DNA of 31,198 nucleotides from the IMG/VR virus record IMGVR_UViG_3300030202_000851, positions 1 through 31,198 of that record; one strand, given 5' to 3'. This document shows, in pieces, positions 15,126 through 29,347 of this stretch. The translations under genes were made by a program, and so were the position numbers. Source of the stretch: a virus. A model generated the notes under the pieces. That model was not told the origin of the DNA. It worked only from the letters and a program-made list of their open reading frames with translations, and did no database searches. Position 1 is the first letter of the stretch, and every line of letters begins with the position of its first letter.

Positions 15126-15212
15126 CAGGAAACAAAATCTTGCATAGCTTTTTATGTTCTTAGTATATCTCGCGTAGGGGCTCAAAGTAAGTATTTGTAA
15201 ACGAACAAAACC

Positions 15213-15242
15213 CAGATATCAGATATCAGATATTAAAATATC
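15213..15242. repeat. Three 7-bp tandem repeats and a palindrome in the divergent region
   Basis: CAGATAT occurs three times head to tail (15213-15233), creating two GATATC palindromes. It runs into the near-perfect inverted repeat GATATTAAAATATC (15229-15242). The block lies between the divergent helicase and replication genes in AT-rich DNA. It looks like an operator cluster or short iteron array, for control of divergent transcription or as part of a replication origin. Which of these applies cannot be told from sequence alone. Confidence 0.5.
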
Positions 15243-15245
15243 GGA

Positions 15246-15278
15246 TTGATCAGTAAGATAACTTTTTTGTTTTACCCC
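15246..15278 (+). promoter_or_regulatory. Conserved phage element, copy 1 (candidate promoter or operator)
   Basis: TTGAT, four variable bases, then AAGATAACTTTTTT and a T-rich stretch running into ACCCC. The same arrangement with the same spacing recurs at 29316, and the AAGATAACTTTT core recurs at 21600. This copy lies about 80 bases upstream of the GTG at 15350. No proper -10 sits at 17 bases from TTGAT, so it may be a phage-specific promoter or a regulator site rather than a sigma-70 promoter. The element also contains the small inverted repeat AAG-ATAA-CTT. Confidence 0.45.
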
Positions 15279-15349
15279 TATATATAAAAGTGTAGGGTGT
15301 AGGTGTTTGGTAATAATGCCAAGCATAGAAAGCAGCGGAGTAGAAAGCC

Positions 15350-16217: not shown

Positions 16218-17018
16218 ATGGCAACAGAAGTAGCAAAGAAAGAGTCTTCTGCTGTAGCAGTAGCACAGTTTGAAGATTTAGGTGGGTTGGGTTTTGAAGA
16301 AACCACTTCCCAAGATATGGCTGTACCGTTTTTACGGATACTTGCACAACTCAGTCCACAAGTAAATAAGCGTGATGGTGCTTATGTTGAGGGTGCTGAA
16401 GCTGGTATGATGTTTAATACGGTAGCTAATAAAGTATACGATGGTGAGAAGGGTGTGGCTGTAGTCCCATGCTATTACAATCGTAGGTTTGTAGAGTGGG
16501 CTCCTAGGGAAAAAGGTGGTGGTTATTTTGGTTCATACCACCCAGATGACCCTATCACTAACACTACAACAAAGAATGAGCGTGGTGAAGATATTCTGCC
16601 AAATGGTAATATACTCACTAATACCGCACAGTTCTTTGTAATCCTGCTTGACGATGATGGTCCACAGCGTTGCCTGATTACCATGTCTAGTACACAGCTA
16701 AAGAAGGCTCGTAAATGGGTTACACAAATGCAAGCTCTTACGGCACAAGGTAAAAACGGTCCGTATACTTTGCCTATGATGTCCCATAAATACCAGCTAT
16801 CTACTGTTGCTGAAAGCAATGATAAAGGTAATTGGTTCGGTTGGGAAATTAGTAAGATCGGTCCGATAAGTCTTGGCGATGCTGAAGAAGCTAATGTGTT
16901 TGAGATGGCTGTAGCTTTTGCTAAATCAGTAAAAGCTGGTGAAGTAGAGGTTAAAGAAACAGCCCCTCCTGCACCTGAGGATAAAGGCACAGCACCCGAT
17001 GATGATGTGCCTTTTTAA
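16218..17018 (+). CDS. Putative single-stranded DNA-binding protein
   Basis: A 266-residue protein with an acidic C-terminal tail that ends DDDVPF, the classic SSB tip that recruits partner proteins. The core is beta-rich (MFNTVANKVYDGEKGVAVVP, then FFVILLDDDGPQRCLITMSS), consistent with an OB-like fold, though it is not the bacterial SSB family by sequence. A Pro/Glu linker (residues of about 240-258) separates core and tail. The ATG follows GGAGG. Location between a coiled-coil protein and the primase supports a replication role. The fold assignment is inference; the tail is directly visible. Confidence 0.7.
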   Translation: MATEVAKKESSAVAVAQFEDLGGLGFEETTSQDMAVPFLRILAQLSPQVNKRDGAYVEGAEAGMMFNTVANKVYDGEKGVAVVPCYYNRRFVEWAPREKGGGYFGSYHPDDPITNTTTKNERGEDILPNGNILTNTAQFFVILLDDDGPQRCLITMSSTQLKKARKWVTQMQALTAQGKNGPYTLPMMSHKYQLSTVAESNDKGNWFGWEISKIGPISLGDAEEANVFEMAVAFAKSVKAGEVEVKETAPPAPEDKGTAPDDDVPF

Positions 17019-17032
17019 GTACAACCAAGGGG

Positions 17033-17094
17033 GTTGATCGCCTCTAGGTTGCTCGGGAGGGTAGTGTCTAGGTATCAACTAACATTACTCTCCC
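17033..17094 (+). ncRNA. Predicted structured leader with hairpin and possible pseudoknot
   Basis: GGGAGGGTAGTGT (17055-17067) can pair with ACATTACTCTCCC (17082-17094) as a 13-bp stem with only two G-U pairs and a 14-base loop. The loop contains ATCAAC (17074-17079), which is complementary to GTTGAT at 17033-17038, allowing a pseudoknot. It lies in the 97-base gap between SSB-like and primase genes. No U-run follows, so it is not an ordinary terminator. Either cis regulation of the primase or an RNA-processing signal is possible. Confidence 0.45.
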
Positions 17095-17115
17095 ACCCTT
17101 TCATTGGAGAAAGCA

Positions 17116-18630
17116 ATGACATTAGCTGAACAGTTTTTAAAACTTTTTGATGGTAATAAACGCGCTCATGGGGTGTTTAACCCTGATGAACAACGTGGTG
17201 ATGGTAAACGTCTAGGCGTATACAAAATTATAAAAGAACCACCCACAGAAGAACTCTGGCAACAGCATCTTGATGGTAAACAAGGTCTTGGCATTATACC
17301 CATACGGGATGACAGTCTGTGTAAATGGGGTGCTATTGATATTGATAATTACAGTGTTGACCATAAATCATTAGTAAATAAATTAAAAGAAGCCAAAATC
17401 ATAGGGTGGGTAGGTCGCAGTAAAAGCGGTGGTGCTCATATTTATTTTTTCTTCAAAGATGCGCTACAAGCTGAGTTTGTGCAATCTAAACTTACTGAGT
17501 TAGCTGCATCATTAGGACATGCTGAGGGTGAAATATTCCCTAAACAAACAACCATTCTAGTAGACCGTGGGGATACTGGTAATGGTTTGAATATGCCATA
17601 TTTCAAAGGTGATTTAAGCACACGCTCTGTTTATGATTTTAAGGGTGAACTTATGTCGCCCAAAGATTTTGTAACTAAAGCCTCTAAGTATTTAATCACA
17701 CCCGAGGACTTTGAAAAGTACCGTATATCAGAACCAGAACCTAAGTTAAAGGATGGTCCACCTTGCCTGAATGAACTTTGCCAACAGGGGTTTGGTGAAG
17801 GCTCACGCAACAATGCTCTCTTTAACCTTGGTGTGTATGCAAGGATGTTTGACTCTGATAATTGGGAAGCATTAGTGCAAAGATACAATGTGGATTACTT
17901 ACAGCCACCACTCAGTCATACTGAGGTAGGTGCAGTAATCAAACAGTTACAACGTAAAGATTACTATTACAAATGCGATGACCAACCTATCAAGCCTTTT
18001 TGTAATAAGGATATATGCGTTACTCGTAAATTTGGTGTTGGTCCGGCTGGTGTACAAAACCAGATGTCAAGCCTAACAAAGATTGATGGTGATCCACCCA
18101 TATGGATATTAGATGTTGATGGTCAGCGTGTTGAACTTAGTACTGATGGTTTAATTAGCCAGACAAGATTCCAAAAAGATTGTGTATCACAAATAAATAA
18201 ATTGCCGATTGCTGTTAGCCAAAGAGCGTGGCAGACACGAATACAGTTATTATTAGACAACTTAACTATTGTGGAAGTACCACCTGACGCTACAATAAAA
18301 GGGGAGTTTGAAGATTTACTTTCACAGTTCTGTACTGATAGAGCTAAAGGTACAGAGCGTGAAGATGTGTTACAAGGTGTTGCTGTTTGGCTTGATGGAA
18401 AAGTATTTTTCCAAGTTAAAGATATTAAAAAGCATTTAACAGTAAACGACTTTAACCATTACTCTTCAAATAAAATAACTCTAAGATTGCAAGGGTTGGA
18501 AGCAGAAAAAATGTTTTGGCGTGTGAAAAACAAAGGTGTCCATGTGTGGTCGTTACCACAGGATTACTTTGCAGATAGCCAAGAGCCATTAGCATTACCT
18601 GATTTACCAGAGCAGGAAGAAATACTCTGA
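17116..18630 (+). CDS. Archaeo-eukaryotic-type primase (TOTE-like AEP)
   Basis: I chose the ATG at 17116, placed behind GGAGA; a TTG at 17104 is in frame but lies under that ribosome site. The 504-residue protein has the AEP metal motif GAIDID (Asp75, Asp77), the second motif SGGAHIYFFF (Ser104 to His108), and a downstream EIFPKQ segment. Together these match the AEP subfamily first noted in TOTE elements and used as replication primases in phages. A C-terminal half with CNELCQQ-like and FCNKDICV Cys pairs may bind zinc, followed by helical domains. It would make primers for the family-A polymerase. The SF1 helicase gene starts inside its stop codon (TGATG), so the two are probably partners. 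Confidence 0.85.
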   Translation: MTLAEQFLKLFDGNKRAHGVFNPDEQRGDGKRLGVYKIIKEPPTEELWQQHLDGKQGLGIIPIRDDSLCKWGAIDIDNYSVDHKSLVNKLKEAKIIGWVGRSKSGGAHIYFFFKDALQAEFVQSKLTELAASLGHAEGEIFPKQTTILVDRGDTGNGLNMPYFKGDLSTRSVYDFKGELMSPKDFVTKASKYLITPEDFEKYRISEPEPKLKDGPPCLNELCQQGFGEGSRNNALFNLGVYARMFDSDNWEALVQRYNVDYLQPPLSHTEVGAVIKQLQRKDYYYKCDDQPIKPFCNKDICVTRKFGVGPAGVQNQMSSLTKIDGDPPIWILDVDGQRVELSTDGLISQTRFQKDCVSQINKLPIAVSQRAWQTRIQLLLDNLTIVEVPPDATIKGEFEDLLSQFCTDRAKGTEREDVLQGVAVWLDGKVFFQVKDIKKHLTVNDFNHYSSNKITLRLQGLEAEKMFWRVKNKGVHVWSLPQDYFADSQEPLALPDLPEQEEIL

Positions 18631-20147
18631 TGAATATAATACTCGGACCTCCAGGAACAGGGAAAACAACCTACTTACTGAATAAGGTCGAAGAGTATTT
18701 ACAAAAAGGTGTCCCACCAGATCGTATAGGTTACTTTGGTTTTACTCGTCGTGCAGCAAGTGAAGCTATTGATCGTGCTTGTGAAAAGTTTAAATTGCAT
18801 AGGCGCGATTTACCTTTTTTCCGTACTCTTCATAGCTTGGCATTTATGCAGATGGGTATCAACCATAATCAGATCATGACTGCTGATAAGTTTCCTGAGA
18901 TTGGTGAGTGGTTAAAGATAGGTGGGTTTTTTAACTCAGGGCTTACTGACCAAGGTCCGTACAAAGATTTTGGTTATGGTGATAAGTTTTTAGAGATTAT
19001 TAATATATCTAGGATTTTGCAACAGCCTTTACGCAAAGCCTACAATGAATCTACTGTGCCACTTAAAACAGATTGGGCAAGGGTGGATTATGTAGATAGG
19101 GGGTTACGAGCTTGGAAAGATAGATATCAGCTTTTTGATTATACTGATATGCTTGAGCAGTTTTGTTATAGAGAGTTAGCACCAAAACTAGAGGTTGTAT
19201 TTATTGATGAAGCACAAGATCTATCACCATTACAGTGGAGTATGGTTCATTTATTACAGGCTAACTCCAAAGAGATGTTTGTAGCTGGCGATGATGACCA
19301 AGCCATATTCCGTTATGCGGGTGCAGATGTAGACTATTTCATAGGGCTGCAAGGTTCTGTCACTGTGCTGGATCAAAGTTACAGGATTCCCGCCAGCCAC
19401 CATACACTTAGTCAAAAAGTTATTCAACGAGTGGTTGATCGTAGACCCAAAGAGTTCAACCCACGGGATGAGGATGGTTGTATTAACTGGCATAGGCACT
19501 CCGAAGAAGTAGATATGAGCAGTGGTGAGTGGCTTTTACTAAGCCGAACAACCAGAGGCGCAAAACAAATAGAAGAGGAAGTGCGTCGTAGAGGTCACCT
19601 ATATGTATATAATGGCAGTAAATCTATTGATGGTAAAGTTTTGGAAGCTGTGCGTCTATGGGAAAATATGAGGAATGGTTCTTCACTCAATGCTGAACAG
19701 GTGCGTATAATATACAGCCAGATGTTATTAGGTAGCCAAGTTGAGTATGGGCATAAAACTTTTAGTAAAGGACAATCTGACCAGCGTTATACTATGCAAG
19801 ACCTGTTAGATTTTCATGGTTTATTGCATACCTTACCTTGGGATGAGGGATTGGGTAAAATATCAGAAAATGATAAAAGGTATATTATGGCTTGCCTCCG
19901 TAAAGGTGAGTCATTAACGGAGGAGCCTCGTATCCGAATCTCTACGATTCATTCTGCAAAAGGAGCGCAAGCTGATCACGTTATGCTTCTCACTGATACT
20001 ATGCGTCGTTCCTATTCTATGTGGCGAAAGTTTGAGAACGAACATTTGGATGAGGCTCGCGTTTTTTATGTGGGGCTTACTCGCGCTTTACAACATCTAC
20101 ATCTGGTACATCCAATGTACAGCCGTGGCTATCAAATCCCAGCATAA
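18630..20147 (+). CDS. UvrD/PcrA-like superfamily 1 DNA helicase
   Basis: A 505-residue protein with the SF1 helicase motifs in order: Walker A GPPGTGKTT (residues 6-14), Ia FGFTRRAA, Walker B VVFIDEAQDLS, III VAGDDDQAIFRYAGA, IV LDQSYRIP, V ISTIHSAKGAQAD, VI FYVGLTRAL. It is shorter than bacterial UvrD because the 1B/2B insertions are reduced. It is a 3'-5' translocase by family and the best candidate for the replication helicase, since no DnaB-type helicase is seen in the window. It overlaps the primase stop codon by one base. Confidence 0.92.
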   Translation: MNIILGPPGTGKTTYLLNKVEEYLQKGVPPDRIGYFGFTRRAASEAIDRACEKFKLHRRDLPFFRTLHSLAFMQMGINHNQIMTADKFPEIGEWLKIGGFFNSGLTDQGPYKDFGYGDKFLEIINISRILQQPLRKAYNESTVPLKTDWARVDYVDRGLRAWKDRYQLFDYTDMLEQFCYRELAPKLEVVFIDEAQDLSPLQWSMVHLLQANSKEMFVAGDDDQAIFRYAGADVDYFIGLQGSVTVLDQSYRIPASHHTLSQKVIQRVVDRRPKEFNPRDEDGCINWHRHSEEVDMSSGEWLLLSRTTRGAKQIEEEVRRRGHLYVYNGSKSIDGKVLEAVRLWENMRNGSSLNAEQVRIIYSQMLLGSQVEYGHKTFSKGQSDQRYTMQDLLDFHGLLHTLPWDEGLGKISENDKRYIMACLRKGESLTEEPRIRISTIHSAKGAQADHVMLLTDTMRRSYSMWRKFENEHLDEARVFYVGLTRALQHLHLVHPMYSRGYQIPA

Positions 20148-20170
20148 TTGTCATGTGGAGTGGTTTGTGG

Positions 20171-20199
20171 TTGCGCTCCAAAGCGTACACTTATTTAAT
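20171..20199 (+). promoter_or_regulatory. Candidate sigma-70-like promoter before 20239
   Basis: TTGCGC and TTTAAT are separated by 17 bases, a partial -35 (3 of 6) and a good -10 (5 of 6). They lie in the 91-base gap between the SF1 helicase and the following small gene, about 40 bases before its ATG. This is the only gap in this part of the replication block, so an internal promoter is reasonable. Pattern match only. Confidence 0.3.
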
Positions 20200-20238
20200 A
20201 GGGGCATAACTTAAACAGCCATAGAAGGGGCTTATTAC

Positions 20239-21552: not shown

Positions 21553-21557
21553 AATGT

Positions 21558-21581
21558 GGTGGTGAGCAGAAGCTCACCGCT
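21558..21581 (+). other. Stem-loop after the DUF932 gene
   Basis: GGTGAGC (21561-21567) and GCTCACC (21572-21578) form a perfect 7-bp stem with the loop AGAA, extendable by three bases with two G-U pairs. It begins six bases after the DUF932 stop codon. No U-run follows, so a Rho-independent terminator is not clear. It may protect the 3' end of the upstream transcript or slow polymerase. Confidence 0.5.
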
Positions 21582-21587
21582 CGCCCG

Positions 21588-21621
21588 ATGCCCTGCTAGA
21601 AGATAACTTTTAGTGGGGCAT
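21588..21621 (+). promoter_or_regulatory. Long hairpin containing the AAGATAACTTTT core element
   Basis: Bases 21588-21602 pair with 21607-21621 as an uninterrupted 15-bp RNA stem with three G-U pairs and an ATAA loop. The stem apex (21600-21611) is the AAGATAACTTTT core also found at 15255 and 29325. Here the TTGAT box is absent. It stands about 75-110 bases upstream of the ATG at 21698, at the head of the putative base-modification genes, and could act as an attenuator, an operator or part of a phage promoter. Confidence 0.4.
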
Positions 21622-21697
21622 TGGAGTAATTAGGGCTTGCTTGATTCCCTATATGTAGTTAGAGTTTATATATTAGCCCCATAGAAAGGAGGCAGTT

Positions 21698-25295: not shown

Positions 25296-25333
25296 AGGGT
25301 TGCTTTTAGTAGTAGGGTAGGGCAAATTAAATC

Positions 25334-25351
25334 AGGCTGCTGTAGCAGCTT
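25334..25351 (+). terminator. Weak hairpin between radical SAM and TS-like genes
   Basis: AGGCTGC and GCAGCTT pair as a 7-bp stem with a TGTA loop, followed only by T and an A-run. It lies in the 83-base gap before the TS-like gene. It could be a weak terminator or pause site. The leader CCCCATAGAAAGGCGG follows, suggesting that the TS-like gene has its own strong ribosome site. Confidence 0.3.
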
Positions 25352-25378
25352 TAAAACCCCATAGAAAGGCGGTTAAAT

Positions 25379-29319: not shown

Positions 29320-29347
29320 TAAAAAAGATAACTTTTTTATTACCCTG
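29316..29347 (+). promoter_or_regulatory. Conserved phage element, copy 2 (candidate promoter or operator)
   Basis: TTGAT, four bases (AAAA), then AAGATAACTTTTTT, with the same spacing as at 15246 and followed likewise by T-rich sequence and ACCC. Here the flanks make TAAAAAAG-ATAA-CTTTTTTA a perfect 8-bp stem-loop. It overlaps the end of the HD gene and lies about 70 bases before the ATG at 29408. It may drive or control the last small-gene block; terminator function is less likely because the stem has almost no G-C pairs. Confidence 0.45.

Follow-up and report, generated by a model that had tools for sequence, protein, structure and literature searches.

Hairpins without a U-tract are found within E. 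coli operons, where they protect the genes upstream of them, as at malE-malF (PMC5927463, in the portion available to us). The reference list of the same paper on decay-protecting hairpins includes puf. In phage T4 an RNA structure stands beside the SSB gene, gene 32, as a pseudoknot upstream of it (PMC3014915, likewise available in part). The STAXI motif is also a structured element near SSB genes, and the accessible part of PMC2864571 describes it as tandem pseudoknots, often with UUCG loops. The PeSL cassettes of T4-type phages, which are cited in the part of PMC4503421 available to us, are stem-loops exchanged among relatives. In addition, the distant phages LMA2 and phiVC8 have a predicted terminator annotated behind a gene homologous to the SSB-like gene considered here.

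Here we investigate the gap that follows this gene in a stretch of viral DNA of 31,198 nucleotides (the window; IMG/VR record IMGVR_UViG_3300030202_000851). All of the features of this locus are on the + strand. The SSB-like gene (16218-17018) belongs to Pfam PF23977 (Pam3_Gp34) and PHROG 2402, a family without an assigned function, and its product has an acidic DDDVPF tail. After a gap of 97 bases (17019-17115) comes the gene for an AEP primase (17116-18630; AEP-TOTE with PriCT_1, PHROG 21866 primase), and the next gene of the same run encodes a UvrD-type helicase (18630-20147). A putative ribosome-binding stretch read from the sequence, TTGGAGAAAGC (17104-17114), precedes the primase ATG at 17116. 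Two hairpins lie in the gap, H1 (17022-17051) and H2 (17055-17094), and comparison with relatives indicates that the pair is real and evolutionarily preserved.

The arrangement resembles each of the described systems in part. As in hairpins of the malE-malF type, a stable hairpin stands behind the upstream gene, has no U-tract and is followed by further genes of the run; unlike those in the accessible portion of that source, it is one of two hairpins, of which one has a near-invariant loop and the other is exchanged wholesale. With T4 gene 32 it shares an RNA structure beside an SSB gene and a protein model that is weakly gp32-like. Yet the T4 structure, as its source describes it in the part available, is a pseudoknot upstream of the gene, whereas here two plain hairpins lie downstream, and neither a position upstream of the gene's own start nor a conserved pseudoknot was found. 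The predicted terminators of LMA2 and phiVC8 occupy the same place behind the homologous gene and have a strong hairpin, but the window and its clade have no U-tract directly past H2. Exchange among relatives is shared with the PeSL cassettes. Unlike these, as far as the citing source describes them, the gap has no promoter that we could find, H1 occurs at one site per record, and the SSB-primase order is unchanged in the compared leaders. No sigma-70-like site was listed in the gap by a scan that is weak and whose sigma-70 consensus may not be that of the host. The STAXI motif differs, in what is available of its description, through its tandem pseudoknots and UUCG loops, and no Rfam match was obtained here: Rfam 15 gave no gathering-level match for the window or the loci of 10 relatives, and at E <= 5 the region 16980-17160 gave two chance-level snoRNA matches. 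A tRNA scan found none, and a literature search, conducted mostly outside subscription journals, found no paper describing the H1-H2 element. We regard it as a device of a known kind with an unusual composition.

The comparisons are based on leaders, defined as the sequence between the stop codon of the upstream gene and the start of the primase. The primase as query identified 54 viral loci (35-100% identity), the H1 pattern 54 stretches, and the SSB-like protein 62 loci. Of the primase loci, 53 supplied a leader, as did seven more contigs with H1 and 20 of the 62 SSB loci; with the window included there were 50 distinct leaders, one of which is empty (L030-L034). Outside the set are L046, which begins within the primase, and L055, which equals the window. 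Another 42 SSB loci were not added: 31 are on contigs already in the set, six break off ahead of the gap (L138, L141, L142, L143, L155, L171), and five others were left out (L147, L148, L154, L169, L170). The next frame assigned automatically is more than 300 nt away in L169 and L170, and the gap of L148 is of the L150 type. Even L051 and L053, the two primase loci that diverge most, have an SSB-like gene upstream (38% and 41% identity). No DNA-level relatives were found among named phages. The fold z is -2 or lower in 42 of the 49 distinct non-empty leaders, with a median of -4.46, and is above -2 in the remaining seven.

The H2 stem pairs 17055-17067 with 17082-17094 over 13 bp and includes two G-U pairs, as an earlier note on this DNA had described. 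A helix of this length arises in the gap in only 2 of 300 dinucleotide shuffles, and folding of 17050-17100 and of 17010-17118 gave z scores of -4.6 and -4.2, respectively. The stem structure is present in the folds of all 24 distinct leaders that contain GTTGATC, and its pairing is preserved although the sequence varies. This variation is abrupt in four pairs of relatives whose flanks are closely similar: L070/L097 (flank identity 0.92 and 0.95, H2 0.47), L009/L013 (0.95 and 0.93, H2 0.53, a rough value because L013 has two hairpins in tandem), L020/L022 (0.91 and 0.95, H2 0.55) and L015/L054 (0.91 and 0.92, H2 0.53). The reverse is seen in L022/L097, with flanks of 0.68 and 0.69 and an H2 of 0.84. 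By these comparisons H2 is under structural constraint; if only its pairing matters, its sequence would be expected to turn over. Stems of the H2 type, GGGAGGGTAG..CTACTCTCCC, are present at 22 additional viral loci, some with U-runs, and at E <= 1e-5 none of the 22 fetched stretches matches the SSB-like protein or the primase. In 7 of the 17 distinct contexts listed, some of them near-identical, at least five T were counted by eye in the 8 bases past the stem, which is the look of an ordinary terminator.

H1, which was absent from the earlier note, begins 3 nt past the SSB stop codon. It has 11 pair positions, with one A-A mismatch in the window, and a loop, GTTGATCG (17033-17040), that is nearly invariant. 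The 24 leaders with GTTGATC contain 17 distinct H1 sequences, in whose alignment 92.9% of cells are paired against 85.5% after shuffling and the covariation score is 0.302 against 0.153 (0 of 500 shuffles reach either value), although kinship of the sequences can push such values past shuffles; when the partner is slid by 1-3 columns, pairing falls to 35-56%. Four of the 11 pairs are invariant, four change on one side, two show double changes and one departs by unpaired cells only. The two double changes are no excess over shuffles (397 of 500), and it is the other measures that support H1. Across 120 pairs drawn from 16 leaders, with one leader omitted as too short, the loop GUUGAUCG has a mean identity of 98.4%; the inner stem averages 0.419, and the third positions of the first 150 primase codons 0.542. 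Each of the 10 relatives' records searched (50-69 kb) contains a single H1 core, and a control with the reversed pattern gave zero.

Distant clades have a hairpin at the same site with another loop, AGTGATTCG in L045 and AGTCATGA in the L144 type; the latter clade, with an SSB-like protein about 63% identical, has a uniform loop among its leaders examined. In L268 the outer stem of H1 is paired differently, as CAG/CTG, while the loop is unchanged and the hairpin lies directly past the SSB-like gene. This case, which is outside the covariation count, was among the matches listed by a CGGTGTAC palindrome scan, most of which we take as chance. A looser scan revealed no further H1 adjoining a primase among the matches listed. 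The H1 loop is, on this comparative evidence, under sequence constraint. A fixed loop implies a specific partner, and H1 may thus be a contact site for a particular protein or RNA. For 14 of the 16 leaders, no CGATCAAC-like partner site, with pyrimidines free at three places, lies within 1.5 kb, and the other two have one each, at differing distances.

Is the structure one of RNA? The earlier note had called the H2 stem RNA-like, and the relatives bear this out for the + strand. The 17 distinct H1 sequences contain 22 G-T pairs and 3 A-C mismatches, and the + strand fold is more stable than the - strand fold in 46 of 49 leaders, counts that are not independent since the leaders are related. 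Both observations fit a transcript of the SSB-primase run, and they indicate that H1 and H2 are maintained as + strand structures.

To which of the two genes does the element belong? Named phages were hand-picked for diversity out of 503 + 25 phage records, and a z of -2 or lower was counted as a hairpin. Where a different gene follows the SSB-like gene, a hairpin lies 3' of the latter in 10 of 11 phages; CN2 is the single failure (z -0.58), and for Kokobel2 the next gene is outside the piece fetched. In contrast, no hairpin was found 5' of the primase when the SSB-like gene is elsewhere (0/6), or 5' of the SSB-like gene (0/10). Where the primase comes next after the SSB-like gene, 6 of the 7 named phages folded have the hairpin. 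R26L is counted with it (z -2.08), its SSB-like assignment being putative since only the end of the upstream gene was fetched, and MW202510 has no hairpin beyond chance (z 0.14). HTVC023P, with an SSB-primase gap of 5 nt, has none. The upstream proteins of Pan1, HTVC027P and HTVC023P, checked individually, are homologous to the SSB-like protein, that of R5C is 27.5% identical to it over 207 residues, and DSL-LC04, 023Pt and MW202510 are among the SSB-like search matches. From the contrast of 10/11 with 0/6 we assign the element to the 3' end of the SSB-like gene and not to the 5' end of the primase. The primase-specific control that had been proposed is not supported by this result. The counter-example of MW202510 leaves our estimate unchanged, because the contrast with the two control sets stands.

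The element is common in these phages but not essential. L030-L034 lack a leader, since their primase ATG overlaps the stop codon of the SSB-like gene (SSB-like proteins 51-53% identical in all five), and in L154 the gap to the longest primase frame is 4 nt; these phages indicate that the element is dispensable in some. Other leaders have structures of a different kind. L035-L041 and L044, of a related clade, have a two-hairpin leader in which the second loop, CCTCC (CTCTCC in L041), complements the primase ribosome-binding site, and sequestration of that site is possible. In a further clade (L157-L160, L163, L164, L167, L182) and in HTVC027P, a distinct hairpin with internal GGGAGACT lies behind the SSB-like gene.

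Our best explanation, to which we give about an even chance, is that H1 and H2 together make up an intercistronic RNA element with which the SSB-like mRNA ends, and which stabilizes this message or demarcates it from the primase-helicase part of the run. H2 would descend from a terminator hairpin whose U-tract disappeared in phages with primase and helicase genes next. Transcription would mostly run through H2 into the primase, and processed or partly terminated SSB mRNA would retain a protected 3' end. The outcome would be differential expression through RNA stability or partial termination, with much of the SSB, a stoichiometric protein, and little of the primase, a catalytic one. H1, behind the stop codon, may position processing or tune the element through a specific contact. 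In favour of this explanation, very different phages have a hairpin behind the SSB-like gene, whichever gene is next. Against it are MW202510 and HTVC023P, which have the SSB-like and primase genes in this order and no hairpin, as well as CN2, L030-L034, L154 and the seven leaders with z above -2. Furthermore, a hairpin for stability only would leave the H1 loop unexplained.

Alternatively, H2 could be a leaky intrinsic terminator that stops part of the transcripts past the SSB-like gene, with read-through yielding the primase. The sequence past H2 in the window, ACCCTTTC, has no U-run directly after the stem. Instead ACC (17095-17097) occupies the position of a terminator U-tract, and it is directly past H2 in 21 of the 22 distinct H2-tail combinations of the window's clade. 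These average 3.7 T over the 8 nt past the stem, and 5 of 22 reach five or more, including L013 through a shifted boundary. The hairpin is G+C-rich, but the terminator scan did not list H2. In phages with another gene next, on the other hand, 8 of 10 have at least five T in the 8 nt past a G-C stem (stem ends set by eye), and L147 has a U-run hairpin between the SSB-like gene and the primase (z -3.92). Since T-stretches follow the ACC in some relatives, leaky termination is possible, though we consider it unlikely.

Could the element instead serve autocontrol by the SSB? Feedback by the SSB, which the earlier note had raised for primase translation, is possible. The SSB-like or another phage protein would bind the H1 loop and affect how stable its own message is or how well it is translated, in a gp32-like manner but from the 3' side. 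Such a reading would account for a loop that is 98.4% identical where primase third positions are 54.2%, for the single H1 core in each of the ten records, and for the different but constant loop AGTCATGA in the clade whose SSB-like protein is about 63% identical. The protein itself offers a further argument. Its AlphaFold2 model (pLDDT 79) aligns best with the phiC31 RDF (Z 8.3), followed by the T4 gp32 core (Z 6.2, rmsd 5.4, 163 aligned), RB69 SSB (Z 6.2) and BRCA2 (Z 6.1), and the matches beneath these are mostly OB-fold proteins, although Z below 8 may mean merely a shared arrangement. Foldseek alone gave no match for the model at E <= 0.001, and the SSB-like profile had two matches, at E about 0.7, against sequences of solved structures. 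SSB identity of the PF23977 protein is plausible from the model. Separately, the phiC31 RDF and the T4 gp32 core among the top alignments suggest a possible fold link between the SSB-like family and phage RDFs. The position of the element behind the SSB gene, not ahead of it, and the low Z both speak against autocontrol, which we hold to be rather doubtful. Equally doubtful is the form of it in which a phage protein, plausibly the SSB-like one, on the GUUGAUCG loop behind its own stop codon would gate H2, through decay or read-through, and so set the ratio of SSB to primase. If H1 were such an operator, it would be a new motif of phage RNA that acts through a new mode of feedback, and H2 its exchangeable output part.

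The hairpins might also act as single-stranded DNA that primes replication. Single-stranded initiation (ssi) sites serve primed replication, and H1 and H2 could be such a site, or an origin, for the adjoining AEP primase with its PriCT_1 domain; + strand ssDNA could fold into the hairpins. However, the structure travels with the SSB-like gene and is found at none of the six 5' regions of a primase apart from it, the tolerance of G-T is typical of RNA, and the sequence of H2 is freely replaced. We consider this function very improbable.

The earlier note had proposed a pseudoknot that steers primase translation, in which ATCAAC in the H2 loop (17074-17079) pairs with the complementary GTTGAT (17033-17038). 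It held that the stem and this second complementarity were unlikely to be chance. That applies to the stem; a 6-nt complement between the loop and the upstream stretch was found in 266 of 5000 shuffles (about 5%). The complementarity exists in the window and in relatives that share its H2 type, but RNAfold places GTTGAT inside the loop of its own hairpin, H1, although H1 and a pseudoknot need not be sterically exclusive. ATCAAC occurs in 8 of the 24 distinct GTTGATC leaders, every one of a single H2 type, and L013 has ATTAAC instead. With the central 20 nt of H2, the H1 loop can pair over up to 6 nt in 11 of the 24 leaders and over up to 3-5 nt in the others; shuffled loops do equally well in 13-35% of trials for those 11, and oftener for the others. 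Relatives preserve the stem as a structure, while ATCAAC is confined to one H2 type. We rejected the pseudoknot because the complementarity is not conserved, and shuffled loops match the H1 loop as well as those of H2 do. The match is probably a chance feature of one H2 allele, and with no hairpin before any of the six primases whose SSB-like gene is elsewhere, a pseudoknotted primase leader is extremely improbable.

There is just as little likelihood that the hairpins are mainly short shared sequences for recombination between phages, as PeSL cassettes are: H2 is swapped between flanks of about 91-95% identity and is similar in the divergent L022 and L097, but the SSB-primase order is constant in the leaders compared and no promoter-like site was found in the gap, and the exchange of H2 may be a by-product. 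The earlier note's other suggestion, a free small RNA, is conceivable, but nothing points toward it.

The window has other structured or repeated intergenic features. The gap behind the DUF932 gene (21553-21697), with a fold z of -6.0, is still more strongly structured than the gap studied here and contains an 18-bp hairpin preceded by a smaller one. The sequence AAGATAACTTTT occurs three times, each time intergenic (15255-15266, 21600-21611, 29325-29336; 0.30 expected with at most one mismatch), lies inside a predicted hairpin at at least two of these sites, and has five exact copies in the records of 3 of 10 relatives. It is a candidate phage regulatory repeat. CATAGAA(A)G is found shortly ahead of start codons in four gaps (15186-15349, 20148-20238, 21553-21697 and 25296-25378).

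The H1-H2 element, compact and supported by comparison, is an addition to the RNA elements of uncultured phages, which are little studied, and the SSB-like family behind which it lies is large and poorly characterised, with 503 phage records matched. The frozen loop of H1 beside the swapped H2 is a natural experiment that sets a sequence-specific function next to a purely structural one. Through it the control of SSB dosage in phages becomes testable.
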